A stretch of 40,249 nt of DNA. Source: Nitrospira sp. GTDB lineage: Bacteria > Nitrospirota > Nitrospiria > Nitrospirales > UBA8639. The notes beneath the pieces were generated by a model. That model was not told the origin of the DNA. It searched no databases and saw nothing but the letters and a program-made list of their open reading frames with translations. This document shows, in pieces, positions 17,976 through 39,933 of this stretch. Location of the stretch: positions 1 to 40,249 of the forward strand of contig JAPPLK010000071.1 of the NCBI GenBank assembly GCA_028819435.1, written 5' to 3'. The translations under genes and the position numbers were made by a program. Position 1 is the stretch's first letter. The number at the start of each line of letters is the position of its first letter.

Positions 17976-18724
17976 ACATATCAAAGAGCGGGAAGAGAAA
18001 GAAAAGTTCACACACGATAGTGGACTGGCCCGTTGAAGACCGGCCACGTGAGAAGTTACTTTTGAAGGGACCAGAGTCCCTCACGAATACCGAACTTCTG
18101 GCAATCTTTCTTCGTTCGGGCGTGAAAGGGAAAAGCGCTGTTAGCTTAGCACAGGAACTCCTTTCTCAATTCGGTTCTTTACGAGAACTCTACGCAGCAC
18201 CTTTGGAAGAAGTGGAGGCGGTGCTTGGCCTGGGTAAAGCCAAAATTGCTCAGTTTAAAGCAGTAACCGAACTGAGCAAGCGTTACCTTGCTGAAGGATT
18301 CCAGAATCGCTCCTTCGTGGAGTCTTCGGATGATATTCTTAACCTCTTATATCAAGAAATGCGAGATCTAGATCAAGAGATCTTAAAAGTCGTTCTTCTA
18401 AACGGGCAAAATCATGTCTTGAAAATCGAGACAATTTCTAAAGGAACGCTGACAACGGCTCAAATTTATCCGAGAGAAGTGATCAAGTCTGCCCTTAGGC
18501 ATTCCACCGCTGCAATTGTGTTCGTTCACAATCATCCATCGGGAGTTGCACGACCAAGCGAGGATGATAAAAAGATCACACGGAACCTTGTCTTTGCATG
18601 CCGTTTTATGAGGATAAAGGTCCACGACCACATCATTATTGGAGATAATGACAAGTTCAGCTTTGCTGACAAAGGAATGATTGAGCAGTACGAAAAGGAC
18701 TTTGATTCGAGGAACGTTTTGTAG
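17972..18724 (+). CDS. radC: RadC-family JAB-domain protein
   Basis: 250 aa. N-terminal HhH/UPF0758 part (DRPREKLLLKGPESLTNTEL and a VLGLGKAKIAQFKA hairpin) plus a C-terminal JAB metalloprotease-like domain with VHNHPSG and a downstream Asp in RPSEDD. RadC-like genes are frequent on mobile islands; the role in repair is disputed. It overlaps the HTH gene and lies 2 nt before the methylase gene, so it belongs to the same transcript. Confidence 0.92.
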   Translation: MNISKSGKRKKSSHTIVDWPVEDRPREKLLLKGPESLTNTELLAIFLRSGVKGKSAVSLAQELLSQFGSLRELYAAPLEEVEAVLGLGKAKIAQFKAVTELSKRYLAEGFQNRSFVESSDDILNLLYQEMRDLDQEILKVVLLNGQNHVLKIETISKGTLTTAQIYPREVIKSALRHSTAAIVFVHNHPSGVARPSEDDKKITRNLVFACRFMRIKVHDHIIIGDNDKFSFADKGMIEQYEKDFDSRNVL

Positions 18725-18726
18725 GG

Positions 18727-21294
18727 ATGATCAAGAAGTTTAAGAAAGCCGAAGAGACCGAAAAGCCGGAAGGACAGATCCAGGATTTTGTCTCTGGTCA
18801 CTGGGTAAAGGCTACTCCTGAAGAGATCGATGCTGTTCAAATCTTTTCACGACGCCTGATTGAAGATTATGACTACCCAAAATCGAATATTCAGACTCGA
18901 CCCCAGTGCCGTGTCCGTAAACGTCCATCGGATAAAGAGAAGTCTTATCCTGTGGATATTGCCGTCTTCAAGGGCAGCCGTCGGATTGAAGACGACCTAT
19001 TCATGGTTGTTGAGTGTAAAAAGAAAAACCGGCAGGACGGTCTTGCACAATTAAAACTCTACTTGGATATGTCAGCAGCAGAAATCGGAGTCTGGTTTAA
19101 CGGTCTCGAACACACATACTTAAGAAAGATCTACCACAAAGATGGACGACGCACCTACCAAGATCTCCCTAGCATTCCACGTTATGGTCAGCGTATTGAG
19201 GATATTGGCCTTTTCAAGAGAAAAGATCTCAAGGTTCCTTCGGACCTGAGAGCCGTCTTCCGTGACCTTCGTAACCACCTTGCTGGCAATGTCACAGGCA
19301 TTACACGCGACGAAGCCCTGGCCCAACAGATTATCAACCTCCTTTTCTGCAAGATCTATGATGAGATCAATACTGGAGCCAATGATATTGTCACTTTCCG
19401 TTCTGGAATCGACGAGCCACCACGTGATGTCAGAAAACGGATACTTGCTCTTTTTGATGAAAAAGTGAAAGGGGATTTTAACGATGTCTTTGATAAGACC
19501 GACGCCATCATCATAGACCCTGAAAGTCTTGTCTATGTTGTCGGTGAACTAGAAAATTATTGTATCACCGAAGCACCAAGAGACGCGGTGGGAGATGCTT
19601 TTGAAGTCTTCATTGGCCCCGCCCTTCGCGGTGGTGAAGGCCAGTTCTTTACTCCCCGAAATGTTGTCAAGATGATGATCAATATTCTGGACCCAAAGCC
19701 AGGAGATATGATCCTTGATCCTGCATCTGGGTCCGGTGGTTTCCTGATCATGGCATTGGAGCATGTCTGGAAGAAAATGGAGGATCAAGCCAAATCGAAA
19801 GGTTGGAGCGCAGTGCAACTTGATCGGAAGAAGCGTGATATTGCTAGTAAGTGTTTTCGCGGTATTGACAAAGACTCTTTTCTGGCAAAGGTTACCAAGG
19901 CCTATATGGCAATCATCGGGGATGGTCGCGGTGGGATTTTCTGTGAGAACAGCTTGGTTTTATCTAAGGATTGGCACTATGCGACACGAGACAGCGTCGA
20001 TGTCGGGGCTTTTAATGTAGTGCTAACGAACCCTCCCTTTGGAACAAAAATTCGGATCAAGGGAGAGCGCATACTTACTCAATACGAGTTGGGATACAAG
20101 TGGAAAAAGAACAAGAAGACCGGTAAAGTTGAAAAGACAGGCACGCTTCACGACGAACGACCGCCCCAAGTCCTCTTCTTGGAACGCTGTCTTCAGTTCC
20201 TTAAGTCAGGTGGTCGTTTGGGTATTGTCTTACCAGAGAGCATTCTAGGCAATCCTTCTTATGAATATCTAGTTACTTATATATTGGAGAAGACAAAAAT
20301 TATCGGTGTCGTAACTATGCCTGAGCACCTTTTTAAGACTAGCGGCAAAGGCGGCACCCATTGCAAGGTATGCGCACTCTTTTTAGAAAAAAACACGGTA
20401 GAACAGCCCTACGACATTTTCATGGCCGACGTTAAATGGTGTGGCCATGATTCAAGAGGTAACCCAACGATCAGGAAAACGAAATTAGGTGAAGATGTTT
20501 TAATAGATGAAGTGCCTGATGTAGCTCCACATTTCCATCTTTTGCAAAAAGCTGTATCCCGTCGAGGAGATCATCGAGGTTTTCTTCTCAAGTCTGATCA
20601 GATCAAGAATAAGATTCTTGTCCCAAAATATTACGCTCCGGAACTAGATGCTTATCTCTTGAGTCTCTCCCGAACCCATGATCTTGTGACGATAAAGTCG
20701 CTTTTTGAAAGTGAAGTTTTATCAGTTCAAACAGGAATTGAAATTGGGAAAATGGCCTATGGGACTGGTCATATACCATTTGTGCGCAGTTCAGATCTTT
20801 CAAACTGGGAGATCAAAGCCGATTTTAAGCACGGTGTCAGTCGAGCGATCTATGAAGAACTGAGAAGTGGCATAGATGTTCAGGCTGGGGACATTCTTCT
20901 GGTAAGAGATGGAACCTACCTAATCGGGACAACTGCGATTGTTACAGAGAGCGATGTGCCAATGCTCTTCCAGAGCCATATATATCGCTTTCGGGTTTTA
21001 AAGTCAGATAACATCGATCCATGGTTGTTTTTTGCTTGTCTCAACACCTCAGTTGTAAAGAAGCAGATTCGAGCAAAGCAATTTACTCAAGACATCATTG
21101 ATACATTGGGCAAGCGCATCTTCGAGGTGATCTTGCCTATTCCAAAAGACAAAGAATTTCGAGAAAAGATTGCTAGGCAAACGCGGGAAACCGTACTGTT
21201 ACGGGTGTCTCTTAGGAACAAAGCCAAACAGATCTCTCTTGAGGTTGAAGGTATCACCGAACCTGGAGAAGAAGACAGCTATGAACTGGCCTGA
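18727..21294 (+). CDS. Single-chain nuclease-methylase-specificity protein (type I-like, no translocase)
   Basis: 855 aa. Residues about 30-180 are a type I R-subunit N-terminal-like nuclease (VDIAVF near 75, VVECKKK near 95, i.e. D...ExK). Residues about 220-570 are an HsdM-like N6-adenine methylase: SAM motif DPASGSGG near 331 and catalytic NPPF near 434. Residues about 660-850 resemble an HsdS target-recognition half (IPFVRSSDLSNW; GDILLVRDGT). No DEAD-box translocase is encoded, unlike true type I systems, so it resembles a type IIG-style fused enzyme. Tightly packed with the upstream radC and the downstream ATPase gene. Confidence 0.85.
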   Translation: MIKKFKKAEETEKPEGQIQDFVSGHWVKATPEEIDAVQIFSRRLIEDYDYPKSNIQTRPQCRVRKRPSDKEKSYPVDIAVFKGSRRIEDDLFMVVECKKKNRQDGLAQLKLYLDMSAAEIGVWFNGLEHTYLRKIYHKDGRRTYQDLPSIPRYGQRIEDIGLFKRKDLKVPSDLRAVFRDLRNHLAGNVTGITRDEALAQQIINLLFCKIYDEINTGANDIVTFRSGIDEPPRDVRKRILALFDEKVKGDFNDVFDKTDAIIIDPESLVYVVGELENYCITEAPRDAVGDAFEVFIGPALRGGEGQFFTPRNVVKMMINILDPKPGDMILDPASGSGGFLIMALEHVWKKMEDQAKSKGWSAVQLDRKKRDIASKCFRGIDKDSFLAKVTKAYMAIIGDGRGGIFCENSLVLSKDWHYATRDSVDVGAFNVVLTNPPFGTKIRIKGERILTQYELGYKWKKNKKTGKVEKTGTLHDERPPQVLFLERCLQFLKSGGRLGIVLPESILGNPSYEYLVTYILEKTKIIGVVTMPEHLFKTSGKGGTHCKVCALFLEKNTVEQPYDIFMADVKWCGHDSRGNPTIRKTKLGEDVLIDEVPDVAPHFHLLQKAVSRRGDHRGFLLKSDQIKNKILVPKYYAPELDAYLLSLSRTHDLVTIKSLFESEVLSVQTGIEIGKMAYGTGHIPFVRSSDLSNWEIKADFKHGVSRAIYEELRSGIDVQAGDILLVRDGTYLIGTTAIVTESDVPMLFQSHIYRFRVLKSDNIDPWLFFACLNTSVVKKQIRAKQFTQDIIDTLGKRIFEVILPIPKDKEFREKIARQTRETVLLRVSLRNKAKQISLEVEGITEPGEEDSYELA

Positions 21295-23956
21295 ACCAAT
21301 TTCCGAAGCACTGAGACTACCTAGCGGCGCCTGTTTCTACAAATGTGCCCTGCAGGTGAACCCTTACGATTATGTGAAGCGCCATAGCAGGTCTACGCGT
21401 GCGAAGGACGAGAGTGAATACAACCAGCTTGTGATTGATGCCTGCAAAACGAATGGGATCCAAGTGATTGCCGTCACCGATCATTACAGGGTCAAAACAT
21501 CGGAAACACTCCGTGAGCAAGCCAGAAAGTCAGATATTTGTGTGTTTCCAGGATTCGAGGCAGTGACCAAAGAAGGGGTGCATCTGCTTTGCTTGTTTTC
21601 TCCTGATACACCACTTGTTAAGCTCGAGCGCTACCTTGGAGACTGTGGTGTCCATGATGAATCAACGGTATCACCCACGGGCAAATATGATGTTACGGAA
21701 TTATTGGAAGAGGCCCAAAAGTGGGGATCGGTGTGTATTGCAGCTCATGTCGCAGGCGAGGGAGGCCTTTTGAGGGAGCTTGACGGTCAGACACGAATGA
21801 ACGTCTGGAGGCATCCCTATCTACTTGCGTGCTCCCTTCCAGGGCCTGTGCAGGATGCTCCTGAGGGTCTTCGACATATTCTCAAAAATAAGGATGCTCA
21901 ACATTGCAGGGAACGACCTGTTGCTATTCTTAATGCGAATGATGTCAGCAAACCAGAAGATTTGGCGAAACCTTCGGTTTTTTGCTGGATCAAAATGTCG
22001 GAGATTTCGATTGATGGTCTTAGACAAGCATTTATTGATCCTCGTTCCCGCATCCGGCTTGCTCATGACCCGATACCAGAGGATCATACCGAGTTTGTTA
22101 CCATATCTTGGCAGGGTGGGTTTCTTGACGGAAGTGCTATCCACTTCAATGAGAATTTGAACGTTCTCATTGGTGGGCGGGGCACCGGCAAGTCAACCGT
22201 AGTTGAGAGTGTTCGATATGTGCTGGGCTTGGAGCCACTGGGCGAGGAGGCGCGCAAGGTTCACGACGGCATTATCCGGCAAGTTCTTCGCGGTGGCACA
22301 AAGGTTTCTCTCCTTGTCCGTTCTCATCGGCCAGCAATGCATGACTATCTGATTGAGAGAACCATTCCCAACCCACCGGTGGTGAGAGATGACACGGGGA
22401 GGGTGATTTCCTTGTCTCCAACTGACATCGCTCCACAGGCAGAGGTGTACGGCCAGCACGAAATCTCAGAATTGACGAAAAGTCCTGAGAAGCTCACGCG
22501 CCTTCTGGAGCGCTTCGTGGATCGCGACCCAAGCATCACACAGCGTAAGGGGTCTCTTACGCAAACGCTGGAACGATCCAGAGTTCGTATACTTGAAGTG
22601 AAGAGGGAACTACGTCAGATTGTCGAGCGGCTGGCATCTCTTCCTACGCTGGAGGAAACGCTGAAGCGATTCCAGCAAGCAGGCCTTGAGGACAAACTTA
22701 AGGAACAGAGTCTCTTGCTTCGAGAAGAGAGAATTTTGCGTACGGCAGGTGAACGCATTGTTCCTTTCCGCGAGATCCTAGGGCAACTCCGTCGGGCCAT
22801 ACCAATCGATCGTGCGTTCATATCAGTGAAGGCGTTGGAAGGATTACCGGGGAAAGAGATTCTAACAGAGTTAGATGCGGTCCTTGATCAGCTTGATCGA
22901 AATATCAAGGCTATTGTCAGCCAAATGGCCGAGGCACTTGAGGATGCTGATGGAGGCCATAGGGCAGTCAGCCAGCACTGGGAGTCTAGAAAGAAGGGTG
23001 TTCAAGCTGCCTATGAAAAGATCCTTCGTGAACTTCAGAAATCCAAAGTCGATGGAGAAGAATTCATACGGCTTCGACGTCAGATCGAAGAGCTCCGCCC
23101 ACTCAAGGACAGGCAGAACGCGCTTCAGCGTGATCTGAATGAGCTAGAAGACCAGCGGCGCAATTTACTAGCAGAATGGGAGGATATTAAAGCCTCTGAA
23201 TATCAGCAGCTTGAGAGGGCGGCAAAAAAAGTAAATAAGGCCCTTGCTGACCGAGTTCGAGTTCAAGTAACAGCAGCGGGAAATCGAGAGTCGTTATATC
23301 AGCTCCTACGTGAGCATGTTGGCGGACGTCTGAGTGAAACTCTTGAGATACTCAAGAAACGAGATTCGCTCTCGCTCAGGGAGTTTGCTGATTCCTGTCG
23401 TACTGGGCGTGAGGTTCTCACGGAGAGCTTTTTAATTCCACCAGCCCAGGCAGAACGCCTTGCTCAAGCCCCACTCGAAACGTTTATGGAGATGGAGGAG
23501 TTGGATCTTCCTCCAACAACCGCTATAAAGTTAAATGTGGCTGGAGAGGGGCAAACGGCTACTTGGCAGGCCTTGGATGACCTTTCCACAGGTCAGAAAG
23601 CAACGGCGGTTTTGTTGCTACTCTTGCTTGAGTCCGAGGCTACACTAGTCGTAGATCAACCTGAAGACGATCTCGACAACCGCTTCATCACGGAAGGGGT
23701 AGTTCCCAAAATGCGTGAGGAAAAATGCCGTCGTCAGTTCCTATTCGCTACCCATAATGCCAACATCCCTGTCCTTGGCGACGCAGAACTGATTGTGGGT
23801 CTTAGGGCAGCAGGTGAAGCTAGTGAGGGAAGAGCTGAAATACCAGTCAAACACATGGGATCTATTGATGCTCGGCCAGTACGGGAGCTTGTCGAAGAAG
23901 TGCTCGAAGGCGGCAGGGAGGCTTTCGAGACGAGACGCCTGAAGTACGGCTTTTAG
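21281..23956 (+). CDS. PHP-domain SMC-like ATPase (TrlF-type)
   Basis: 891 aa from ATG 21281, overlapping the methylase by 14 nt; an upstream in-frame ATG at 21170 lies deep in the methylase and is unlikely. The N-terminal 250 residues are PHP-like (AVTDHYR near 64, a later AAHVAGEGG). Walker A GGRGTGKST lies near 297, then about 350 residues of coiled coil, signature LSTGQ near 767, Walker B VVDQPEDDLD near 790 and THN switch His. It resembles Rad50/SMC-type ATPases with a phosphoesterase domain. Likely the DNA-sensing or effector partner of the methylase-nuclease. Confidence 0.85.
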   Translation: MNWPEPISEALRLPSGACFYKCALQVNPYDYVKRHSRSTRAKDESEYNQLVIDACKTNGIQVIAVTDHYRVKTSETLREQARKSDICVFPGFEAVTKEGVHLLCLFSPDTPLVKLERYLGDCGVHDESTVSPTGKYDVTELLEEAQKWGSVCIAAHVAGEGGLLRELDGQTRMNVWRHPYLLACSLPGPVQDAPEGLRHILKNKDAQHCRERPVAILNANDVSKPEDLAKPSVFCWIKMSEISIDGLRQAFIDPRSRIRLAHDPIPEDHTEFVTISWQGGFLDGSAIHFNENLNVLIGGRGTGKSTVVESVRYVLGLEPLGEEARKVHDGIIRQVLRGGTKVSLLVRSHRPAMHDYLIERTIPNPPVVRDDTGRVISLSPTDIAPQAEVYGQHEISELTKSPEKLTRLLERFVDRDPSITQRKGSLTQTLERSRVRILEVKRELRQIVERLASLPTLEETLKRFQQAGLEDKLKEQSLLLREERILRTAGERIVPFREILGQLRRAIPIDRAFISVKALEGLPGKEILTELDAVLDQLDRNIKAIVSQMAEALEDADGGHRAVSQHWESRKKGVQAAYEKILRELQKSKVDGEEFIRLRRQIEELRPLKDRQNALQRDLNELEDQRRNLLAEWEDIKASEYQQLERAAKKVNKALADRVRVQVTAAGNRESLYQLLREHVGGRLSETLEILKKRDSLSLREFADSCRTGREVLTESFLIPPAQAERLAQAPLETFMEMEELDLPPTTAIKLNVAGEGQTATWQALDDLSTGQKATAVLLLLLLESEATLVVDQPEDDLDNRFITEGVVPKMREEKCRRQFLFATHNANIPVLGDAELIVGLRAAGEASEGRAEIPVKHMGSIDARPVRELVEEVLEGGREAFETRRLKYGF

Positions 23957-23965
23957 AGATTACCC

Positions 23966-25198
23966 ATGACCAAGACGGAACTGATAGAGCTTATTCGAAA
24001 TGATGAGAACTCTGGTGTGGAGTTTAAACGAGATACTATTGAGAATCGCGACCTTGCAAAGGAATTGGTGGCTTTTGCCAATTTGCAAGGGGGATATGTG
24101 CTACTTGGAGTCGAGAAAGATAAAACCATTTTAGGCATTACTCGAGAGAAGTTAGAAGAGTGGGTAATGACAGCATGCAGAGATAAGATTCGGCCAGAAC
24201 TGATCCCTTACTTTGAAATCCATCGTGATTTCGAGCCAGGGAGACATGTTGCTATTGTACGCGTGGAGCGCGGGTGGACCGTGCACCATGTGTGGCACAA
24301 CAAGCACCGAACGTATTTTATTCGCGTTGGGACGCAAAGCCGCGAAGCTAGCCAGGAAGAACTGGAGCGTTTGTTTCAACAGCGAGGTGCGTTTCGACTG
24401 GAACTTCGACCAGTCTCTGGATCGACTATGAAGGACCTTGATCGCAGACGACTTGTTGATTACTTTGCACGTGTACGACAGCAGGAGGTTCCACTAGAAG
24501 AAAACGAAGCGGCTTGGCGTATGCTTCTCATCAACACGGAGGTTTTGTCAGAAGACGGAGGCAATTCTCCTACAACAGTCGCTGGCCTTCTCTTATTTGG
24601 ACGGAACCCAAACCGTTTTCTTCCCCATGCAGGCATAGATGCTGTCGCATACTCAAGCTTAGAAAAGGATTACGCGGCAAAGGAACGCAGTCCGCTACGA
24701 GGCCCGATCATGCCGCTTCGTAATGGGCAAGGGGAAGTTGTTGAGAATGGTCTTGTTGATCAGGCAATCGACTTTATACGCCGTAATACGGTAGTTGAAG
24801 CGCTCATTGATGGAAAAGGTCAGCGTCAAGAACACTGGAAAGACTATCCCTTGGAAGTGATTCGTGAGACCGTTGTGAATGCGATAACTCACCGTGATTA
24901 CTCACTCTCGGCAACCGATATAGAAGTAAGTCTTTATGCGGATCGCCTTGAAGTTATCTCTCCTGGAAGACTGCCGAATGGGATCACGCCCGCGCGCATG
25001 CGTACTGGCTGCCGTGCAGCCAGAAATCAGCTTATTAAGGACGTAATGCGTGATTACGGCTACATGGAACACATGGGAATGGGTGTTCCCCGGAAAATAA
25101 TACGTGGAATGCTTGACCACAATGGAACCAACCCGGATTTTATAGAAGATGGGGAGCGCTTTATAGTACGCCTTTGGAAAGAACCACGGAAACCATGA
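23966..25198 (+). CDS. AlbA_2 (Schlafen-like) domain / HATPase_c_4 protein
   Basis: 410 aa, 9 nt after the ATPase gene. N-terminal AlbA_2 domain: GVEFKRD at 17-23 and FANLQGGYVLLGVEKD. The C-terminal half has ETVVNAITHRDYS near 300 and a late HMGMGVPRKIIRGM block typical of HATPase_c_4. Such proteins are annotated as putative transcriptional regulators or RNA-binding proteins and recur in defence islands. The third member of the operon could sense nucleic acid or regulate. It converges on the permease gene with only 3 nt between stops. Confidence 0.85.
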   Translation: MTKTELIELIRNDENSGVEFKRDTIENRDLAKELVAFANLQGGYVLLGVEKDKTILGITREKLEEWVMTACRDKIRPELIPYFEIHRDFEPGRHVAIVRVERGWTVHHVWHNKHRTYFIRVGTQSREASQEELERLFQQRGAFRLELRPVSGSTMKDLDRRRLVDYFARVRQQEVPLEENEAAWRMLLINTEVLSEDGGNSPTTVAGLLLFGRNPNRFLPHAGIDAVAYSSLEKDYAAKERSPLRGPIMPLRNGQGEVVENGLVDQAIDFIRRNTVVEALIDGKGQRQEHWKDYPLEVIRETVVNAITHRDYSLSATDIEVSLYADRLEVISPGRLPNGITPARMRTGCRAARNQLIKDVMRDYGYMEHMGMGVPRKIIRGMLDHNGTNPDFIEDGERFIVRLWKEPRKP

Positions 25199-28355: not shown

Positions 28356-28985
28356 TCAGCGACGAATTGACGCTAATTGTTGTCTCAGTAATTCTCCAAT
28401 GAATTGACCTAAGGACGTTAAGCTTGCATTATAGGCGCGTTCAGTATGAATTGCTGCTTCATCAACGCTTTCAAGTAGAGTTATATATTCGTCACGATTG
28501 CTGTGAATTAACTCAGGGAGAATAGGTCTACCGTGCAACCACACCCCCAATTTAGCACAAACAACAAAGTAGCAAAGGGCGCGAGCCGTTCGACCGTTCC
28601 CATTGACGAATGGGTGGATATGATTTAATCGCCAAAGGCAGTAAGCGGATAACATGAGATAATCCGTAGAATCCCAATGACGATTAACGACATTGATAAA
28701 ATCATTCATCAGTTCCGGCACTTGATAGTGTTCTGGAAATTGACGGCTACTCCCGCGAACGCCTATAGAACTAGGCCGATATTCCCCTGCATTGATATGA
28801 AGACAGGCAATGGCATGATAGTTTAATGCCTTGATAATCGCCGTTGAAATCATTGGGCGTTTCACGGCGAGCGCAACGTGGACAATCGCTTCTAAGAAAT
28901 CATATTGCCTGTTTATATTGCTGGCATGTAGTTTTTGATAGGCTGGATGTCCCTCGTTATACCCCACCAAATCAAAGAGAATCAT
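28356..28985 (-). CDS. Fic-domain protein (AMP/nucleotidyl transferase)
   Basis: 209 aa. The Fic active-site motif HPFVNGNGRTAR is intact at residues 124-135, with the catalytic His and the phosphate-binding Gly/Asn/Gly/Arg. Fic enzymes transfer AMP or other nucleotide parts to target proteins. No inhibitory S/T-x-x-x-E-G/N helix is evident in the protein itself, so inhibition might come from the small upstream gene whose stop it overlaps by ATGA (28982-28985). A toxin-antitoxin role is plausible but not proven. Confidence 0.9.
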   Translation of the reverse strand: MILFDLVGYNEGHPAYQKLHASNINRQYDFLEAIVHVALAVKRPMISTAIIKALNYHAIACLHINAGEYRPSSIGVRGSSRQFPEHYQVPELMNDFINVVNRHWDSTDYLMLSAYCLWRLNHIHPFVNGNGRTARALCYFVVCAKLGVWLHGRPILPELIHSNRDEYITLLESVDEAAIHTERAYNASLTSLGQFIGELLRQQLASIRR

Positions 28986-30009: not shown

Positions 30010-31008
30010 ATGCTGACGGTCTGCTTGATGCCTACTCAATATCCTCAAAATAGCGCTTCACCGAAACAGGGAAAAGCTTATCGGATTTCAGGGCATGAGT
30101 CGTTCCCGTGCCGCTATGCATGGCTACCCAAAGCAGTGCGCGGCCTACAAGAAGATCCGAAATTTTTTGGAGATGAAGAAAGCGCAATGGTCAAGTTGGG
30201 CGTTGGTAAAAACATGGTTCGTTCCATTCGCTTTTGGTCGCAAGTGATGGGCATGGTGCAAATTGAGACGAGAGGGCAAAGCCTTTCGGTCACCGACCAG
30301 GGAAGAATCTTGCTTGCCGAAAAAGGACTCGATCCATTTCTGGAAGACATTCAGACGCTTTGGCTTCTTCACTGGAACCTAGCCACCAACGTAGCGAATC
30401 CACTCTTGGCGTGGGACTTCCTGCTGAACCGCTGGCAGGAACCTGAACTTATGCCAAGTGTTGCCCTTAAAGCACTTCAAAAGGAGGCGGAGAAGCAAGA
30501 GAATCGGCTTTCGATGGTCACGTTGCAACAACACTTTAATACGTTTCTTCACACCTACTATCCGACTCGGGGCCGGAAAGGAGAAGTTCAGGAAGACAAC
30601 CTGGATTGTCCACTCGTCGAACTGGAACTCATCATTAAAATAGGGGAGCGTGAACTTGATCGCCGATCCGGCAAACAGGAGACGATCTACGGTTTCAATC
30701 GTGAAGAAAAACCTGACATCAGTTCTGAACTCTTTGTGTATTGCTTAAATGACTTCTGGCAAAAACGTCACGAGGTAGAATCGACCCTGACGTTGCGGGA
30801 GATTGCCCATGGTCATGGCAGTCCCGGTCAGATATTCAAGCTTCCGGAGGAAAATGTCCGTGCGCGGGTTGAGGATTTGGCACGTCAGACTGATGGATTC
30901 TTGGAATACATGGAATCGGCGAACCTACAACAAGTCCAAAAAATCCGAGACCGGAACAGCATGGATTTACTCAAGAAAATCTATTCGGGTGCGGTGCATG
31001 ATGGTTAG
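30010..31008 (+). CDS. sspB: DUF4007 protein, SspB-like (DNA phosphorothioation)
   Basis: 332 aa; ATG 30028 is an equally possible start, as neither has a clear ribosome site. The DUF4007 signature is strong: SGHESFPCRYAWLPKAV (near 26-42) and VKLGVGKNMVRSIRFW (near 60-75). In Ssp systems SspB is a nicking enzyme for single-strand phosphorothioation at short motifs. It opens an array with a large ATPase and a DndC-like protein, the known SspB-C-D order. The assignment relies on this context plus domain identity. It overlaps the ATPase gene by about 11 nt. Confidence 0.75.
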   Translation: MLTVCLMPTQYPQNSASPKQGKAYRISGHESFPCRYAWLPKAVRGLQEDPKFFGDEESAMVKLGVGKNMVRSIRFWSQVMGMVQIETRGQSLSVTDQGRILLAEKGLDPFLEDIQTLWLLHWNLATNVANPLLAWDFLLNRWQEPELMPSVALKALQKEAEKQENRLSMVTLQQHFNTFLHTYYPTRGRKGEVQEDNLDCPLVELELIIKIGERELDRRSGKQETIYGFNREEKPDISSELFVYCLNDFWQKRHEVESTLTLREIAHGHGSPGQIFKLPEENVRARVEDLARQTDGFLEYMESANLQQVQKIRDRNSMDLLKKIYSGAVHDG

Positions 31009-34000
31009 AAAAAGAATCCGCGATCTTTTCCAAGTCAAAAGCCGCTTCCTTCGTTCTGCGCATCTTGAAAGGGATTTCCACGATCCGACCTGTTTGTCCG
31101 GGTACGTTGCAACGGATTTCGCCCGTTCCTGCTTGGGACACGTGGCGAATGGACTGCACGCAAGTTCCGGGCAACGTGCATGGCGGATGACAGGTGATTA
31201 TGGTAGCGGTAAGTCTAGTTTCGCGTTATTGCTTGCACACTGGTTCGCTGGCCGTGAAAAGACTTTCCCTCCTGAGCTAAGTAAAGTCGTTGGCTATCGT
31301 CAGATCGGTGTGCGGCGAAGGCCAAATTTCGTTCCCATCTTGGTGACCTGCTCGCGGCAGGCTTTGGGAACTTCGATCCTAAACTCGCTACAACAAACCT
31401 TGACTCAGCTTTATGAGCGTAGGACCAAGAGAAGCCTTGTGCGTGAAGTCGAAAGCCTGCTCGATACAGGATTGGATCCCACTGACGATCAGATCTTCCG
31501 ACTCATTCTCGAAGTGAATTCCCGAATCATTGCAGACTCGAAGGGCAATGGGCTGATTTTAATTCTGGATGAACTCGGAAAGTTCTTAGAGTTTGCCGCT
31601 CTGAATCCACAACGGCAGGATATTTTCCTCTTACAACGTCTGGCTGAAGCAGCCTCACGTAGCGGCGATCAACCATTGTTTGTCGTTTGTCTCCTGCATC
31701 AAGGATTCAATGCCTACTCGGACTTGCTTAGCCAGTCGGCCCAACGGGAATGGGAAAAAATCGCAGGGCGGTTTGAAGAAATTGTCTTCAATCAACCTAT
31801 CGATCAAGCCGCCAACGTCATCGCTTCATCTATAAATGTCCAAACAAAGGGAATCCCAAAAACGGAGTTTCTAGAGTTGAAACAAGCCATGAAACAAGTT
31901 GTGGCGCAAGGTTGGTTCGGCTCTAGTTCAACAAAGTCTCTGCTGGTTGTTGCAAACCGGCTTTACCCACTCCACCCGACTGTCTTACCGATTCTCATTC
32001 GCACGTTCCGACGTTTCGGTCAGAACGAGCGTTCGCTCTTCAGCTTCCTGATGTCGAATGAACCGTTTGGCTTGCAAGCCTTTTCAGAGAAGAACCTGCA
32101 GGAAGGAAACCTGTATCGCTTGCATAACTTCTATGATTATGTACGGACAAACTTCGGTCATCGTCTTGCCGTCCAGAGCTACCGCAGCCACTGGAATCTC
32201 ATTGATTCCATAGTCGAAAGTTTCGCCACGGAAGACGAACTCCAAGTTAAAATTCTAAAAACAGTGGGGATCCTCAACCTGATCAACGATGGTGATCTCG
32301 TGCCGACCGAGGAATCGGTCGTGATGGCGTTGGCGCGATTTCACCACACGGAACGAAGACAGGTTCCAAACGCTTTAAAAAAACTCCACAAGGACAGAGG
32401 GGTCATTTACAACCGCGGTCGTGCGCGTGGCCTCTGCCTCTGGCCACACACGTCTGTCGATCTGGAAAAAGCATACGAGGATGCAAGCCGAGTTGTTGAT
32501 GCCCCGCAGCACGTCGGCAACTTTATCAAGGATTCCCTGGAATCCCGGCCTATCGTCGCACGGCGGCATTACATAGAGACGGGTAACCTCCGTCACTTTG
32601 ATGTCCGCTATTGCTCAGTGAACGAATTGTCCGGTCTGTTTGAATGGCACCCAACTGTCGCCGATGGACTCATCATCGTGCCGTTGTGCGAAACGCCAAC
32701 TGAGTGTGAGACAGCATTGGAGTTCGTAAAAGATTCAAAGGTCAAGCAACGCTCGAACTGGCTTGTGGCAGTTCCTTCTCCACTGAATCATCTAGCAAAC
32801 TTGGTTCAAGAGGTTCAACGATGGGAGTGGATTTCTACGAATACACCTGAACTGAACGCAGACAAGTTCGCCCGAGAAGAAGTCTCACGTCAGAAAGCCG
32901 TAGCACGCTTACAGTTGGACAAAAGAATTCAGAGCTACGTTGGGTTCAAACAGTTCACGGGCCGAATGATGCTCGAATGGTTTCACGAAGGGCGTCCGCT
33001 CAAAATGAAAGATGGTCGCGAGCTTTTGTCTAGGCTGTCTCGAATATGCGACGAAGTATACAACTGTGCTCCACGCATTCAAAATGAACTCGTAAATCGG
33101 CGCAATCTGAGTTCGGCAGCGGCAGCGGCGCGAATGCGGTTGATCGAACGGATGTTCACGGAGCCAGGAACCAAGTTCTTAGGCATGATTCCTGAAAAAA
33201 AACCACCGGAGATGAGCATGTATCTCTCGGTGTTCAAAAGTACAGGGTTACACCATGTGCAAGAGGATCGTTGGCGCATTGGCGCACCCAACGACGAGAT
33301 TGATGAGAAATGTAACGTTCTTCCAACGTTGCAACGGATTCGTGAGCTTGTGATGGACAAGGCGGACAGCCGCGTCAATATGGCATTGTTGTTTGCTGAA
33401 TTGAGGAGACCACCCTACGGTGTTCGCGACGGCCTCATTCCGCTCCTCCTGACGGTATTTGCCATCGCCTATGAAAAAGACGTGGCCTTTTACAAAGACG
33501 GCACCTTTCTCCGCGAACTGAATGGCGGAGCGATGCTTTTGCTGACGAAAGCTCCGGAACGGTTTGACATTCAATATTGCAAGATGGAAGGAGTTCGGGC
33601 TGAACTCTTTCAACGGCTCCTGAATGTGTTGGACATCAAAGGGTCGGCACAGCGAGAATTCGAACTTCTCGACGTGGTAAAACAACTATGTGTTTTTGTT
33701 GCTCAACTTCCGACCTATGTATTGAATACGAAGAAACTCTCCGGCAAAACGTTGGCTGTGAGAGACGCCATCCTGAACGCGCGCGAACCTGCAAAGTTGT
33801 TGTTCACAGAATTGCCGAAGGCATGTGGCTTTGAACCAATTCAGGCTGAAACCTTAACCAGTAAACCGGTATCAGTTTTTGTGAAAACATTAAAAGCCGC
33901 CTTGGACGACTTAAAGGTGGCTTTTCCGGAATTGCGGGAACGGTTGCGCCATGAATTTCGTGCCGCGTTTGACTTACCCGGCACTTTTGAACAGTTTCGG

Positions 34001-34468
34001 ACAGCGCTTGCAGCTAGATCTGAACAAATTCTACTCACGATAACCGAACCGAAGCTTCGAGCCTTCTGTCTGCGGTTGATGGATGACAGCTTGCCGGAAT
34101 TAGATTGGCTCGAATCTGTCGCGAGCTATCTTGCACTCAAACCACCATCTAAATGGCATGACGCGGAAGAAGAGGTCTTCAGCTACGAGCTTAGCCAATA
34201 TTCTGCAAGATTTCATCGCGTGGAGAGTGTTGCGTTCGCTGAAGGTAGATTGCCCAAGAATTCCGTTGGCATTCGATTGGCAATAACTCAAGCCGACGGG
34301 GTCGAGCATGAGCAAGTGGTTCACTACGCACCAAATGAAGAGGATCAACTCCAAGATCTGCAAAGGCAATTTGAAGGCTTATTGACCAAAGGCAAACGTC
34401 TTGGTCTCGTAGCAGCATCGCGGGCAATTAGGGCAAATTCGGAAGACGGAGAAAAAGGAAAGGCATGA
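30998..34468 (+). CDS. sspC: Large P-loop ATPase, SspC-like
   Basis: 1156 aa from ATG 30998 (or adjacent ATG 31001). An in-frame ATG at 30803 lies inside sspB and is rejected. Walker A GDYGSGKSS is near 65 and Walker B LILILDELGKF near 186; the family-like FARSCLGHVANGLHA block precedes them. The rest is a long helical body with no catalytic motif I can name. SspC ATPases power SspB/SspD-dependent sulfur insertion. BREX BrxC is an alternative relative, but no PglZ or BrxL is nearby. It overlaps sspD by ATGA (34465-34468). Confidence 0.72.
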   Translation: MMVRKRIRDLFQVKSRFLRSAHLERDFHDPTCLSGYVATDFARSCLGHVANGLHASSGQRAWRMTGDYGSGKSSFALLLAHWFAGREKTFPPELSKVVGYRQIGVRRRPNFVPILVTCSRQALGTSILNSLQQTLTQLYERRTKRSLVREVESLLDTGLDPTDDQIFRLILEVNSRIIADSKGNGLILILDELGKFLEFAALNPQRQDIFLLQRLAEAASRSGDQPLFVVCLLHQGFNAYSDLLSQSAQREWEKIAGRFEEIVFNQPIDQAANVIASSINVQTKGIPKTEFLELKQAMKQVVAQGWFGSSSTKSLLVVANRLYPLHPTVLPILIRTFRRFGQNERSLFSFLMSNEPFGLQAFSEKNLQEGNLYRLHNFYDYVRTNFGHRLAVQSYRSHWNLIDSIVESFATEDELQVKILKTVGILNLINDGDLVPTEESVVMALARFHHTERRQVPNALKKLHKDRGVIYNRGRARGLCLWPHTSVDLEKAYEDASRVVDAPQHVGNFIKDSLESRPIVARRHYIETGNLRHFDVRYCSVNELSGLFEWHPTVADGLIIVPLCETPTECETALEFVKDSKVKQRSNWLVAVPSPLNHLANLVQEVQRWEWISTNTPELNADKFAREEVSRQKAVARLQLDKRIQSYVGFKQFTGRMMLEWFHEGRPLKMKDGRELLSRLSRICDEVYNCAPRIQNELVNRRNLSSAAAAARMRLIERMFTEPGTKFLGMIPEKKPPEMSMYLSVFKSTGLHHVQEDRWRIGAPNDEIDEKCNVLPTLQRIRELVMDKADSRVNMALLFAELRRPPYGVRDGLIPLLLTVFAIAYEKDVAFYKDGTFLRELNGGAMLLLTKAPERFDIQYCKMEGVRAELFQRLLNVLDIKGSAQREFELLDVVKQLCVFVAQLPTYVLNTKKLSGKTLAVRDAILNAREPAKLLFTELPKACGFEPIQAETLTSKPVSVFVKTLKAALDDLKVAFPELRERLRHEFRAAFDLPGTFEQFRTALAARSEQILLTITEPKLRAFCLRLMDDSLPELDWLESVASYLALKPPSKWHDAEEEVFSYELSQYSARFHRVESVAFAEGRLPKNSVGIRLAITQADGVEHEQVVHYAPNEEDQLQDLQRQFEGLLTKGKRLGLVAASRAIRANSEDGEKGKA

Positions 34469-35274
34469 GTCAATCAACACGGCATATCCTCTGCATGTCG
34501 GGAGGGAAGGATAGTACCGCACTCGCACTTTATATGCGTGACCGTGTGAAGGACATGGAATATGTCTTCTGCGATACCGACAAAGAATTGACCGAAACGT
34601 ATGAGTACTTGAATCGCGTTGAAGCCTTCCTGGGCAAAAAAATTGTGCGTCTGAACGCTAGAGCAGGATTCGACCACTGGCTTGAGGTGTTTGGCGGGTA
34701 TCTTCCCTCACCGAATATGCGATGGTGTACGAAGTTGCTTAAATTGAAACCGTTTGAGGAATACGTGGGTGAAGATTCTGTGGTCAGCTATGTTGGTCTT
34801 CGCGCCGACGAAGACCGCGTTGGCTACATCAGCACGAAGCCGAATATAAAAGCTGTGTTTCCCTTCAAAGAAGATGGGATTGACTATGCAGGCGTCATGA
34901 AGATCCTGCGGGATAGTGGCATTGGGATGCCACCCTATCTCACATGGGGCAGGACCCATTCAGGATGCTACTTCTGCTTTTTTCAGCGCCCGATTGAATG
35001 GGTGCGGCTACTCGAAACCCATCCCGACCAATTCGAGGAAGCCCAGAAATACGAGAAGATCACGGATAATCCTGGTAAAACTTTCACCTGGATTCAAGGA
35101 ATGCCCTTGAGCGAACTCCGAAAACCTGAAAATATTACGAGAATCAAAGTTCGCTATGCTGAGTCCGAGGAACGAAAAAAAACGAACCGAGGCAACAAGA
35201 AACTTATCGAAGTCTTAGGGGGACTGGAAGACGACGACGATGAACAGAGGGCATGCCTGATTTGCCAATTATGA
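34465..35274 (+). CDS. sspD: PAPS-reductase-family protein, SspD/DndC-like
   Basis: 269 aa. ATP-pyrophosphatase P-loop CMSGGKDSTALALYM (near 9-23), then RWCTKLLKLKPFE near 85 and a cysteine pair in GCYFCFFQRP near 167, plus a C-terminal C-x2-C (RACLICQL), consistent with an iron-sulfur/thiol-handling enzyme. DndC/SspD activates the DNA backbone for sulfur insertion with ATP. Placement directly after the ATPase supports SspD. The sulfur donor SspA (cysteine desulfurase) is not in the window; a host IscS-type enzyme could supply it. Confidence 0.8.
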   Translation: MSQSTRHILCMSGGKDSTALALYMRDRVKDMEYVFCDTDKELTETYEYLNRVEAFLGKKIVRLNARAGFDHWLEVFGGYLPSPNMRWCTKLLKLKPFEEYVGEDSVVSYVGLRADEDRVGYISTKPNIKAVFPFKEDGIDYAGVMKILRDSGIGMPPYLTWGRTHSGCYFCFFQRPIEWVRLLETHPDQFEEAQKYEKITDNPGKTFTWIQGMPLSELRKPENITRIKVRYAESEERKKTNRGNKKLIEVLGGLEDDDDEQRACLICQL

Positions 35275-35284
35275 GGATACTGCT

Positions 35285-36127
35285 ATGAATCGAGATATAA
35301 CGAAAACGCAAGAGCGTTCTCTAGAAAAGATATACAGCATTCCTCTCACGGATATCACAATTAGTACTGACAATGTGAGAGTGACCGATGTGACGAAAGA
35401 TCTGGACGAATTAATTGCCAGCATCAAGAAGCACGGTTTGCTTCAGCCTATAGTCTTGATGGGTCGGCATGGAGATACTCCATATAAACTCATTTCAGGC
35501 CAGCGTCGGTTTCTCGCTCATCAGAAACTTGGAAAAGGCGATATTCGAGCCGTTTTCGTGGGGACCCTCTCAGAAACCGAGGCAGTTGTAAAATCTCTTA
35601 TTGAGAATATGCAGCGCCGTGATTTGGATTACCATGACACTGCCAAGGCGATTACATATCTGTATAAGGAGTACAACAAAGATGAACGGCAAGTTCAGAA
35701 AGAAACGGGTCTTTCGATTAGAAAAATTCGAGATTTAATTCTCATCGAAGAGAGAGCAACGCCAAAGATGAAGACCTTAATGGAAAAAGGCAAAGTATCA
35801 CCCGCCGATGTTAAGAGGGCGATTCGTGCTGCCCAAGGCAACTTAGGGAAAGCCGAAACGCTGGTGGATCTCATCATAACGCATAACCCTACAACACATC
35901 AGAAGAGGCGGCTGGCGATGTATGGCGAGAGGGGAAAGCGTGCCACGGCAGAAAATATATTAGAGAAGGCGATGAAGCCCCATGTTGAACAAAGCATACT
36001 TATCAGTTTGCCAGACGAGGTACGACAAGGTCTCATTACTGCAACCGAGGCCATGTCAATAGAAGCTGGGGAGCTTGCCTCCAAGGTTCTTGCAGACTGG
36101 TTGCGTAATCAGGGGTTTTTGGCGTGA
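35285..36127 (+). CDS. ParB-like nuclease/DNA-binding protein
   Basis: 280 aa, 10 nt after sspD. The N-terminal ParB/Srx domain has LDELIASIKKHGLLQPIVL, GQRRFLAHQKLG (near 72) and ENMQRRDLD (near 107), followed by an HTH (VQKETGLSIRKIRDLI). The C-terminus (SILISLPDEVRQGLITATEA) looks ribbon-helix-like. In plasmids ParB segregates DNA; next to a modification cassette a sensing or DNA-targeting role is more likely. Not recognised as a standard SspE (no DUF262 motif). Its end overlaps the next gene by 4 nt. Confidence 0.75.
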   Translation: MNRDITKTQERSLEKIYSIPLTDITISTDNVRVTDVTKDLDELIASIKKHGLLQPIVLMGRHGDTPYKLISGQRRFLAHQKLGKGDIRAVFVGTLSETEAVVKSLIENMQRRDLDYHDTAKAITYLYKEYNKDERQVQKETGLSIRKIRDLILIEERATPKMKTLMEKGKVSPADVKRAIRAAQGNLGKAETLVDLIITHNPTTHQKRRLAMYGERGKRATAENILEKAMKPHVEQSILISLPDEVRQGLITATEAMSIEAGELASKVLADWLRNQGFLA

Positions 36128-36801
36128 CAAGAACTCAAAACACCATCCGCACGTTGAAGAACGAGCAACTGGAGCAAGCCCTAGCAATCTTAATCTCTTG
36201 CACACGCAGGAAAACTCGACCGTTATCACTGACAGAAATTGCCAAATGGCTCGATATTGCGGTTGGGAAAATGGGGAGTATTAGGGCTGTGGCAGATCGT
36301 ATCGGCGTGTCTGCGAAAATGTTGACTCAGTTTTCCCACGTCAAAAAGTTATCGCAGGATGTCCAGACCCTTTTTGAAAAACGAAAACTGGACAGCGTTG
36401 ATGCTACTACTCAGTTAGCGATGTTACCTGAACACGAACAGAAAGTTGTAGCCAATGCCTTGGCCTCACAGGCTATTGATACGATTGATCTCCGGGCTGT
36501 TGTTGAACTCAGACGTACAGGAGACAGCAGGTCGATAACTGTTTTGTTACAAAAAGTCTCTGCAAGCAAGACCCAAAAGGAGTATGTGGCTGAGTTTGTC
36601 ATTCGAGGGAACCCTAATCCCGCAGATATTCGCAAACAGTTCACTAGGTATATTCCTGCTTCCGAAATTCTTTCCTTTCAAGTAAAGGGGGCGCTTGGAC
36701 AAATGGTGCTTTCTGCTAAAGGAAAAAGTGCTTTGACAAACACTGCAAAAAAATTACGGACTCCACTGAAGCATGTGATCCCTGCGATTCTGGATTACTG
36801 A
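36124..36801 (+). CDS. ParB-HTH-like companion protein
   Basis: 225 aa starting at GTG inside the previous stop (GTGA). Residues about 50-110 (VADRIGVSAKMLTQFSHVKK, then LPEHEQKVVANALAS) resemble the central helix-turn-helix of ParB/KorB without the N-terminal ParB domain. Beyond residue 150 is an unassigned domain (EYVAEFVIRGNPNPADIRKQ). A split or paired ParB arrangement is suggested. No family name can be given with confidence. Confidence 0.6.
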   Translation: MTRTQNTIRTLKNEQLEQALAILISCTRRKTRPLSLTEIAKWLDIAVGKMGSIRAVADRIGVSAKMLTQFSHVKKLSQDVQTLFEKRKLDSVDATTQLAMLPEHEQKVVANALASQAIDTIDLRAVVELRRTGDSRSITVLLQKVSASKTQKEYVAEFVIRGNPNPADIRKQFTRYIPASEILSFQVKGALGQMVLSAKGKSALTNTAKKLRTPLKHVIPAILDY

Positions 36802-36809
36802 GTATTTCT

Positions 36810-37472
36810 GTGTCACGAAAAGCGAAGGAACAGGCAGATCAGTTGCCGGTAGGAGTAAGTCTAGCCATCGGGCAGCTTGTTGGGCTTTCGTCTGAATTAC
36901 AGCTTCTGCGGGATCATCCTCCGCTCGTCAAACGGTCAGACGGGAAATATGAGGGTGACATTTTGGGATTTGTTAAGGGGTTACACCTTTCCGCTCGCGT
37001 GATTTATTTTCTTCGAGAACGACTTTCGTCGGCTGACCTTGAAGTAAGCTGGGGACACATCTTAGATCAAAACGGTCAATCATGTTCGCCTGAATGCGAT
37101 GTGGTAATCCACAAAAAGGGCTGGATCTGTCGTTGGAACGGTAGCAGTAGACCGATTATGGAATTCACATTCGTCGAGGCCAGTTCTGTCTTGGCTGTCA
37201 TCAGTTGTAAATCCAAACTAACAACCATTGATAAAAAGTATCCCTCTTCACTGAAAAAGTATGGGGTCAATAAAGTTTTTCTGCTTGCTGAGTGTTGTGT
37301 TGAATCTAGAAAAGAATCGCTCAAAAAGAGGGCTCGAGAAGCTGGGTATAAAGGACTCTGGTTCCTGTACAGCGTTGATACATCAACAGGATTTGTGAAA
37401 ACTGATGAATCGGCACTCAAGAGCTTTGTCGACGAAATTTTGAAAAGTGTTTCCAGTCGAATGCTTAGTTGA
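36810..37472 (+). CDS. DUF6602-like protein, possible PD-(D/E)xK relative
   Basis: 220 aa from GTG 36810, 8 nt after the preceding gene. Pattern: YFLRERLSSADLEVSWGHIL, then ECDVVIHKKG, then VEASSVLAVISCKSKLTT. In related nuclease-like families the last block is usually E-x-K (VIEVK). Here the Glu position is Ser (SCK), so catalytic capacity is uncertain. No membrane segment. It sits inside the Ssp-linked cluster and is probably part of the effector arm. Confidence 0.6.
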   Translation: MSRKAKEQADQLPVGVSLAIGQLVGLSSELQLLRDHPPLVKRSDGKYEGDILGFVKGLHLSARVIYFLRERLSSADLEVSWGHILDQNGQSCSPECDVVIHKKGWICRWNGSSRPIMEFTFVEASSVLAVISCKSKLTTIDKKYPSSLKKYGVNKVFLLAECCVESRKESLKKRAREAGYKGLWFLYSVDTSTGFVKTDESALKSFVDEILKSVSSRMLS

Positions 37473-37531: not shown

Positions 37532-38884
37532 ATGGCCTCTATCAATACCCAAACTTTATTTGAAGAACTTTTCTTCGCTCCGACTGAAGATATGGTTCGG
37601 GAGATTATTGACGAACACCAAGAGATTTTCCGTGATGAACATTGGCACCCTTTAGGCGGTGACGAAAATTTCTTTGGCATCGTTAGAGGACAGCAGTCGA
37701 ACCCTATTGCGGCCATTGTCGAGAAAGTGACGAATTCTATCGACGCTCTTTTGATGAAAAAATGTTATGAAGTTGGAATAGACCCAAAAGCGTTTGATGC
37801 TCCACGTAATATGGAGGAAGCTTTACAGAAATTTTTCGTCGATCACAAAAAATGGGATCTTCAGTCCACAAGGCGAAAACAGGCCGAAGAAATTCAGATT
37901 ATCGCTGACGGCCCACCGAAAAACACCTCAGTCATTATATATGACAACGGTGAAGGCCAGCGCCCTGAAGATTTTGAAAATACTTTTCTCTCGCTCGTTC
38001 GCGGCAACAAGATTGACATCCATTTTGTACAAGGCAAGTACAATATGGGTGGCAGTGGTGCCTTGTTGTTTTGTGGCAAGGAACGTTACCAACTCATTGG
38101 ATCGAAACGGTTTGATAACTTGGGTCCGTTTGGCTTTACGCTTGTGCGGCAGAGAAAAATAGGGAGTTCGCAAGATGCCAAGAGACACAGCCATTTCGAG
38201 TATTTGAAAATTGATGGAGACGTTCCCTCGTTTGAGTCTGCCGATATGGATTTAAAGTTGTTTGGACGGAAGTTCAAAACTGGCACGATTATAAAGATGT
38301 ATTCTTATCAATTTCCTCCTGGCTATGCGGGTTTTGCTCAAGATCTGAATCAAAGCCTAAACGAGTTCCTGTTTGAGCCGGTTCTGCCTATTCTGACGGT
38401 TGATAAGAAGGAGCGTTATCCAAACAACAAGGTTTTGGAACTAGATTTGTTTGGTCTCAAGAGACGTTTGGAGGAAGACAAAAATGACTACGTCGATTCA
38501 TCTTTTTCCGAAGAATACGAGGACGAACTCTTTAGCAAGGCAAAAATTAGCTGTTATGTGTTCAAGCCAAAGCTGTCAGGGAGAGATGCCAAGAAGACCA
38601 AGGATATAATTCGGGAAAGATTCTTCAAGAATGATATGTCTGTGATGTTTTCTGTCAATGGACAAATTCATGGGCATTTCACGTCGGAATTCATTACGCG
38701 TACCTTAAAATTTAACCTGCTCAAAGACTCTCTCCTGATTCACGTAGATTGTACTGGGATGAAGCCTGATTTCCGTGAAGAGTTATTTATGTCAGACCGG
38801 GACGCCTTAAGAAAGGTGATGAGGCAATGCAATTGCGAAGGTTTTTGGGAGAAAAGCTTCGCAAGAGTCGTCTTGAGGAAATAA
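37532..38884 (+). CDS. GHKL (HSP90/MORC-like) ATPase, N-terminal part
   Basis: 450 aa. The Bergerat ATP-binding fold is well marked: IVEKVTNSIDALLMKK (N-box, near 61), DNGEGQRPEDFENTFLSL (near 137) and KYNMGGSGALLFCG (near 168). The reading frame then enters a short tail after MSDRDALRK that looks unlike protein of this family. The next ORF in the -1 frame supplies the natural continuation. It is probably one gene of about 818 codons split by a frame change. GHKL ATPases act as nucleotide-gated clamps; here a DNA-surveillance role is inferred. Confidence 0.75.
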   Translation: MASINTQTLFEELFFAPTEDMVREIIDEHQEIFRDEHWHPLGGDENFFGIVRGQQSNPIAAIVEKVTNSIDALLMKKCYEVGIDPKAFDAPRNMEEALQKFFVDHKKWDLQSTRRKQAEEIQIIADGPPKNTSVIIYDNGEGQRPEDFENTFLSLVRGNKIDIHFVQGKYNMGGSGALLFCGKERYQLIGSKRFDNLGPFGFTLVRQRKIGSSQDAKRHSHFEYLKIDGDVPSFESADMDLKLFGRKFKTGTIIKMYSYQFPPGYAGFAQDLNQSLNEFLFEPVLPILTVDKKERYPNNKVLELDLFGLKRRLEEDKNDYVDSSFSEEYEDELFSKAKISCYVFKPKLSGRDAKKTKDIIRERFFKNDMSVMFSVNGQIHGHFTSEFITRTLKFNLLKDSLLIHVDCTGMKPDFREELFMSDRDALRKVMRQCNCEGFWEKSFARVVLRK

Positions 38885-39933
38885 ACCGTAGACGCAAAGA
38901 GTCGATTGGCCTGGAAAGCGAAGATACTTCTGATCTGGTCAAATCGTTTGCCAAGAATTTACCTAAAAATAGTGAACTGTTCAGGCTTTTAGAGCAGACT
39001 CTCAAATTAGAAGAACACAAAGAGAAAAAGAAAGGACCGGAGAAGAATAAACCAAAAGAGAGAAAAGAAGAAAACCTTTTTCAGCCCAAACGTTTTCCGT
39101 CTATGTTTAAATTCCAAAAAAAGAAAGACGGTGTAAGTGTTGTTTCTGTCCCTTTGAACGGGGAAAAGACTCTATTGTTCGATACCGACGTCGAAAACGA
39201 CTATTTTGATAGGGTTGAAGAGCCGGGGAATTTGCAACTCGGGTTATTGCAGATTAAGTATTCCGAGCCAGAGGGTGGTGACATTCCAGGCGATAAGAAA
39301 GAGATTTCACAGTTGCTGAATATTGTAAAAAGCAGTCCTGAAAATGGCACCATTAAAGTCAGCATCACCCCAACCAAGGAGGTTCAGGTTGGAGATGAAC
39401 TCGAAGTTAAAGCTTCTCTAGATGGTTGTGGAGAGGCGCTTGAAGAAATCATTTTGGTCAAAATATCCGAGGGAAAAGGGTCAAAAGAACCTATCCCCAA
39501 GGAAGAGGAAGACAGTGACCCTATAGGTCTTCCGGAACTCAAGCGCGTACAGAAAAATGATTGGGATAATCTTGAGCAACAAGGTATTCCAATGAATCAC
39601 GATACTGTGATGTGGTCTGTAGGAGAAGGAGATAAGCTGGAAACGATCTATATCAATTTGGACAGTAGCGTGTTTTTAAGCCATCGCTCAAAACTAAAGA
39701 ACGAAGAACAAATTGTTGCGGCACAGAAGAGGTATCTCGCCTCTGTATATTTTCATGCGCTCTTCCTTTACGTAATCACAAAGAAAAAGAATTATAGTTT
39801 ACAGATCAACAAAGAAGGAAAACCGGAAGACATTTTAGTAGATGAATATATACGCGACGTCTTTGACAGTTACTATAGTGACTTTCTCTTAAACTTTGGC
39901 GCGGAATCGTTGATGAATGTCTTGGAAGACTAA
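38827..39933 (+). CDS. Continuation of the GHKL ATPase, C-terminal part (-1 frame)
   Basis: 368 aa when counted from the internal ATG. It overlaps the preceding ORF by 58 nt, and its first residues (LRRFLGEKLRKSRLEEINRR) read like the helix following the GHKL transducer region. A charged Lys/Glu linker (near 60-90) leads to a beta-rich domain and a C-terminal helical part (FHALFLYVITKKKNYSLQI). No ribosome site precedes the ATG. It may be translated through a frameshift at A-AAG (38812-38815) or be a separate subunit. Confidence 0.65.
   Translation: MQLRRFLGEKLRKSRLEEINRRRKESIGLESEDTSDLVKSFAKNLPKNSELFRLLEQTLKLEEHKEKKKGPEKNKPKERKEENLFQPKRFPSMFKFQKKKDGVSVVSVPLNGEKTLLFDTDVENDYFDRVEEPGNLQLGLLQIKYSEPEGGDIPGDKKEISQLLNIVKSSPENGTIKVSITPTKEVQVGDELEVKASLDGCGEALEEIILVKISEGKGSKEPIPKEEEDSDPIGLPELKRVQKNDWDNLEQQGIPMNHDTVMWSVGEGDKLETIYINLDSSVFLSHRSKLKNEEQIVAAQKRYLASVYFHALFLYVITKKKNYSLQINKEGKPEDILVDEYIRDVFDSYYSDFLLNFGAESLMNVLED

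Follow-up and report, generated by a model that had tools for sequence, protein, structure and literature searches.

The window, the whole 40,249-nt stretch of DNA analysed here, belongs to a 2.62-Mb genome in 114 contigs, of which it is on contig 32, and carries on its plus strand an Ssp locus, a bacterial anti-phage system that tags DNA with sulfur by phosphorothioation. In this locus sspB (30010-31008; PADLOC SspB, E=2.4e-109; Pfam DUF4007) is followed by sspC (listed as 30803-34468; PADLOC SspC, E=0 over residues 82-1145) and by the PAPS-reductase-like sspD (34465-35274; PADLOC SspD, E=4.3e-112). The true start of sspC is probably near 31010, judging from homology that begins at about codon 82 of the listed frame. 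All three reading frames are intact, and all three PADLOC matches cover nearly the full profile length. Downstream, on the same strand, are genes for a protein with a ParB-N domain (35285-36127; Pfam ParB_N), a 225-aa protein (36124-36801) and a putative nuclease with PD-(D/E)xK-like and DUF6602 profile matches (36810-37472). The last gene of the locus encodes a GHKL ATPase and is divided between two plus-strand frames, ORF1 (37532-38884) and ORF2 (38827-39933).

Outside the window genome, the nearest relatives of the ATPase gene are at locus L005 (88% identity; genome G006, 'Nitrospira sp. bin75') and locus L006 (86%; genome G010, the chromosome of an 'uncultured Nitrospirales bacterium'). 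L006 comes from the same genus and from a one-contig genome, and its ATPase gene is a single uninterrupted frame of 800 codons. The ParB-N domain protein is 74% identical in L006, and the L006 counterpart of the 225-aa protein has a weak ParB-like match. Between sspD and the GHKL gene, L005 has three genes (L005:2913-5918) that show no recognisable relationship to their positional counterparts in the window (35285-37472), as if cassettes had been exchanged between conserved flanking genes.

As in described Ssp systems (SspABCD with SspE or SspFGH), full-length sspB, sspC and sspD frames lie directly upstream; the downstream genes of the window differ, being those for the ParB-like protein, the 225-aa protein, the DUF6602 putative nuclease and the GHKL ATPase. 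No SspE match was found among the downstream proteins, and no PADLOC effector model matched the GHKL protein. SspFGH of V. anguillarum, which includes a Walker A protein and the FtsK-like SspH, was rejected as the identity of the downstream module since its domains are unlike those in the window (PMC8092258). PbeABCD was likewise rejected as a relative, since it consists of an SF2 helicase/PLD protein, an AAA ATPase and two small proteins. A gene for a Fic-domain protein (minus strand, 28356-28985) adjoins the Ssp locus. The rest of the defence island (17972-25198) contains RadC, a fusion of HSDR_N with an N6-methylase, a large SMC/Ppl-like ATPase with a listed ORF that runs into that of the fusion, and an AlbA_2 (Schlafen-like) protein that has PADLOC matches to Argonaute-associated models.

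We modelled the intact L006 ATPase with AlphaFold2 (mean pLDDT 73.7; 36 sequences). Residues 43-462 of the model match the ATPase-transducer modules of Hsp90, MORC and MutL (VIA-align Z 14-19.6; rmsd 4.1 over 303 residues), and a Foldseek search gave an E of 4.6e-8. The predicted fold is that of a Bergerat-type ATPase with a transducer, which places the protein in the GHKL superfamily. In Hsp90 the catalytic arginine sits in an S-R-E sequence in the corresponding region; the similar SDRE of the ATPase is a candidate equivalent. By sequence, the Pfam HATPase_c_3 match to ORF1 falls just under the cut-off, a profile search with the family returned no PDB match, and no PADLOC or NCBIfam model matched it.

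Position of the frame break

ORF1 encodes the N-terminal half of the ATPase, with the GHKL domain and transducer. Its 450-aa product matches L006 residues 1-423 and then continues with 27 aberrant residues to a stop, ending in DALRKVMRQCNCEGFWEKSFARVVLRK; in a tblastn search with the L006 protein the identity is 86% over residues 1-428. The -1 frame reads GDEAMQLRRFLGEKLRKSRL and runs on to 39933. Read from 38803 to 39933, it encodes the remainder of the ATPase, with 76% identity to L006 residues 425-800, and the conserved RLKKGDEA is already in this frame from 38803, as in L006. Counted from its ATG at 38827, ORF2 covers the C-terminal half (residues about 433-800) and overlaps ORF1 by 58 nt (38827-38884); the two open frames as such overlap by 106 nt (38779-38884). 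These data bear out two statements of the first-pass annotation, namely that the first frame reads DALRK and then an atypical tail to a stop 58 nt into the next ORF, and that the -1 frame is its natural continuation.

That annotation also placed the join exactly on an A_AAG tetramer, which proved incorrect. When aligned by MAFFT with the nucleotide sequences of L005 and L006, the window lacks one base at 38800-38803, where the homology passes from frame 0 to frame -1, with the single one-base gap at about 38801. This is the only single-base gap in the shared coding part, which is otherwise collinear; the remaining gaps are multiples of three or lie at the 3′ end, where the L005 contig stops. 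The frame change thus sits 10-13 nt upstream of A_AAG, at a site without a long homopolymer. We conclude that the frame break is real in the sequence. It follows residue 423, near the end of the module at residues 43-462, such that the truncated product lacks the last helices of the module and the whole C-terminal half.

The same gene is generally continuous elsewhere. In 68 of the 80 homologous loci the frame stays open for 780 codons or more, L006 being among them with its 800 codons, and three more are cut merely by contig ends; the comparison that the first-pass annotation proposed thus did show homologues with one continuous ORF of about 800 codons. None of the 80 loci is split at the same place as the window. 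A second copy of the broken allele was not found in a genus-wide search of 14 genomes, the exact junction sequence had no match in viral contigs, and no other genome of the same species was found.

The A_AAG tetramer and the second reading frame

The A_AAG tetramer (plus strand, 38812-38815) is in the phase of ORF1 (AGA_AAG) and had been put forward as the slippery site of a programmed -1 frameshift. The first-pass annotation rightly described A_AAG as permitting slippage in bacteria: it is a documented -1 site, first noted as compensating for a nearby frameshift mutation, and is used at A_CGA_AAG and G_CGA_AAG (PMC5009743). The window resembles the cases of Bacillus cytidine deaminase and IS1222 (PMC5009743) in having the same tetramer after a purine-rich Arg codon, AGA here and CGA there; however, its frame discrepancy originates before the tetramer and is confined to a single assembly. 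In neighbouring genes, 27% of overlaps of this length contain an in-phase A_AAG by chance and 90% some Z_ZZN tetramer, so the tetramer by itself is no evidence of frameshifting. L006 reads the same A/G run in another phase (CTT AAG AAA GGC), indicating that the tetramer is what remains of normal lysine codons once they are read in the wrong phase. Given that the frame changes upstream of the slip site, and by one base, we interpret the break as a single-base difference and not as an evolved site.

A hairpin is predicted downstream of the tetramer (plus strand, 38821-38874; MFE -21.4 kcal/mol). Folding of 38816-38876 gives -21.4 kcal/mol, with z of -3.16 and -3.8 in two estimates, the latter from shuffles, and is equalled in 0.46% of GC-matched genome windows. 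The best fold at the same place among 59 homologues is -15.7, and the hairpin is absent from them at the strength seen in the window; 160 of 5000 synonymous recodings of the same peptide (3.2%) fold as well. All of these statistics are to be read generously because several stretches were tried. A weak outer stem follows A_AAG after 5 nt and the strong stem of 8 bp after 17 nt; only the former is at the usual distance from a slip site.

If the hairpin aided functional -1 frameshifting at A_AAG, the locus would be either a programmed two-product gene or one in which a fixed indel is rescued, with a fraction of the product full-length. The known use of the tetramer in bacteria, the unusual stability of the hairpin and the selection that persists on both halves (see below) are consistent with this. 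However, a slip at A_AAG would give SDRDALRK-GDEA, with DALR where the family has (E/D)RLK, and would not restore R425, an arginine shared by all 36 aligned homologues. In addition, A_AAG does not lie at the homologous frame change, the two-frame organisation is not kept in relatives, the strong stem is too far from the slip site for the usual spacing, A_AGA_AAG is not a tandem heptamer, and chance gives such a tetramer in 27% of overlaps and synonymous recoding a fold as stable in 3.2% of cases. We consider functional slippage improbable, and the programmed frameshifting proposed in the first-pass annotation is not upheld. A variant in which a chance indel has been captured by A_AAG together with the lineage-specific hairpin, leaving the effector at a low level set by frameshifting beside a full dose of truncated ATPase, seems to us more improbable again. 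Gene fission, in which the halves would be translated separately, ORF2 from the ATG at 38827, and act as two subunits, is the reading to which we give least credence. Both halves are conserved, and this ATG is specific to the window (L005 and L006 have serine codons there) and follows the Shine-Dalgarno-like AGGTGATGAGG. However, the Shine-Dalgarno strength is moderate (energy -4.6), a level that 20% of all ATGs reach, none of the homologues is divided here, and the break falls inside the ATPase-transducer module instead of between domains. Overall, the break looks like an ordinary mutation or an assembly slip and not a programmed ribosomal frameshift.

Mutation or assembly error

We compared the ratio of nonsynonymous to synonymous unique changes (N/S) on the window branch with those on the branches of the intact L006 and of L005. 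For the window, N/S was 16/39 before the break and 32/43 after it (total 48/82); the corresponding values were 47/81 and 68/80 (total 115/161) for L006, and 35/42 and 46/26 (total 81/68) for L005. The window did not differ from L006 (p=0.40 and 0.67), whereas overall it differed from L005 (p=0.004). In L005 itself, codon 197 of the ATPase gene is an in-frame TAG (L005:6001-8292; also in L002), an independent lesion accompanied by a raised nonsynonymous share. We conclude from these substitution counts that both halves were under purifying selection for most of the window branch, which indicates that the lesion is recent or is an assembly error. Such persisting selection would be expected of a recent mutation, of an assembly error and of a gene whose product is still made through slippage.

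An assembly or consensus error would mean that the gene is continuous over 800 codons in the cell, the base being missing only from the assembly. Undiminished selection in both halves and the division of the window genome into 114 contigs are compatible with this, as is the distribution of interruptions among homologues: 9 of 48 metagenome-type assemblies have an interrupted copy, against 0 of 29 isolates (Fisher p=0.012; classes set from record titles, with two records that bore no MAG label taken as metagenomic). Confinement to metagenomes is the pattern that artefacts would give. Among the nine interrupted copies, four carry a point lesion beyond which homologous sequence goes on; in the other five the C-terminus is missing close to a contig end or has left no detectable remnant. 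As a qualitative control for disruption, SspD has no internal stops in 42 copies; its 30 partial alignments are mostly due to an insertion in Bacteroidota. Against an assembly error, when ORFs from 2.0 Mb of the closed L006 genome were compared with 338 kb of the window genome, frame breaks were found in only 1 or 2 of 92 testable genes (107 kb), namely the ATPase gene and possibly L138 at about 5890, which has a diverged N-terminus; the other flagged stops lay close to the ends of genes, except for one on the opposite strand to an efflux gene. Indels are thus not widespread in this fairly clean assembly, and the lesion site lacks the long homopolymer at which indel errors cluster. We regard an assembly error as a serious but rather unlikely explanation, and lean towards a real mutation.

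On balance, we favour, with modest confidence, a recent loss of one base near 38801 that has broken the ATPase gene of the Ssp locus and yields a truncated product. In such a mutant, the 800-codon gene for an ATPase of Hsp90/MORC/MutL fold, last in the phosphorothioation locus, would have lost its base recently enough for the signature of purifying selection to be still present in both halves. Ribosomes running out of frame would add 27 unrelated residues and stop, producing an ATPase that lacks the C-terminal half, and A_AAG just downstream could return a small fraction of them to the original frame. We infer that a loss occurring in the cell would inactivate the protein, and that the effector arm would be gone while tagging by SspBCD persists. 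As its alternative to programmed frameshifting, the first-pass annotation had offered inactivation of the effector by a mutation or an assembly error; the long open frames of most homologues make this alternative the better supported one, with inactivation itself a presumed consequence of the truncation.

In SspFGH systems, loss of modification is harmful since the restriction arm attacks the cell's own unmodified DNA (PMC8092258), and the effector arm is therefore the one expected to be dispensable. The window locus may, by analogy, behave like SspFGH in that respect. The frameshift as such carries little weight, because restriction-type systems can lose effector genes harmlessly as long as they keep the modification arm. 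Should the lesion be genuine, the modification genes are open and one effector gene is broken, and the cell may carry solitary phosphorothioation, which has already been inferred for most sspBCD loci (PMC8092258).

The ATPase and sspBCD across phyla

The association of the ATPase with sspBCD is a more interesting by-product of this analysis than the frameshift, and the family is absent from PADLOC. The deeply conserved GHKL ATPase of about 800 aa is repeatedly linked to sspBCD among the loci L005-L084, in Nitrospirota, Bacteroidota, Poribacteria and others. Within 6-kb flanks of the ATPase gene in the 80 homologous loci and the window, SspC was found at 50 loci, SspD at 48 and SspB at 18, together with a DndB-family protein at 24 and a GmrSD_N protein at 19; with regard to sspA, the cysteine desulfurase gene of Ssp systems, a desulfurase-like cluster, named by sequence only, was present in 15 homologous loci. 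Our paper search found no literature linking SspBCD with a GHKL ATPase. Further restriction partners have been postulated for sspBCD (PMC8092258), and the GHKL ATPase is a candidate for them. It is plausible that the ATPase is an undescribed effector part of Ssp systems, and it may act in restricting phage.

GHKL ATPases have been linked to restriction-modification before. Prokaryotic MORC and paraMORC proteins, for which a MORC-specific S5 motif has been reported, share with the window ATPase an N-terminal GHKL fold and a transducer/S5-type module, and likewise occur in operons with DNA modification and predicted nuclease genes; the paper describing them mentions neither phosphorothioation nor Dnd genes (PMC2292703). 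Shedu VcSduA, with GHKL and DUF4263 nuclease domains, is also a GHKL ATPase in an anti-phage setting, but by Pfam the window ATPase is without a PD-(D/E)xK/DUF4263 domain, and the putative nuclease is a separate gene here (PMC12137116). In the poribacterial locus L034, the gene before that of the GHKL ATPase (L034:4091-6007) encodes another HATPase_c protein, distinct from it and 638 aa long.
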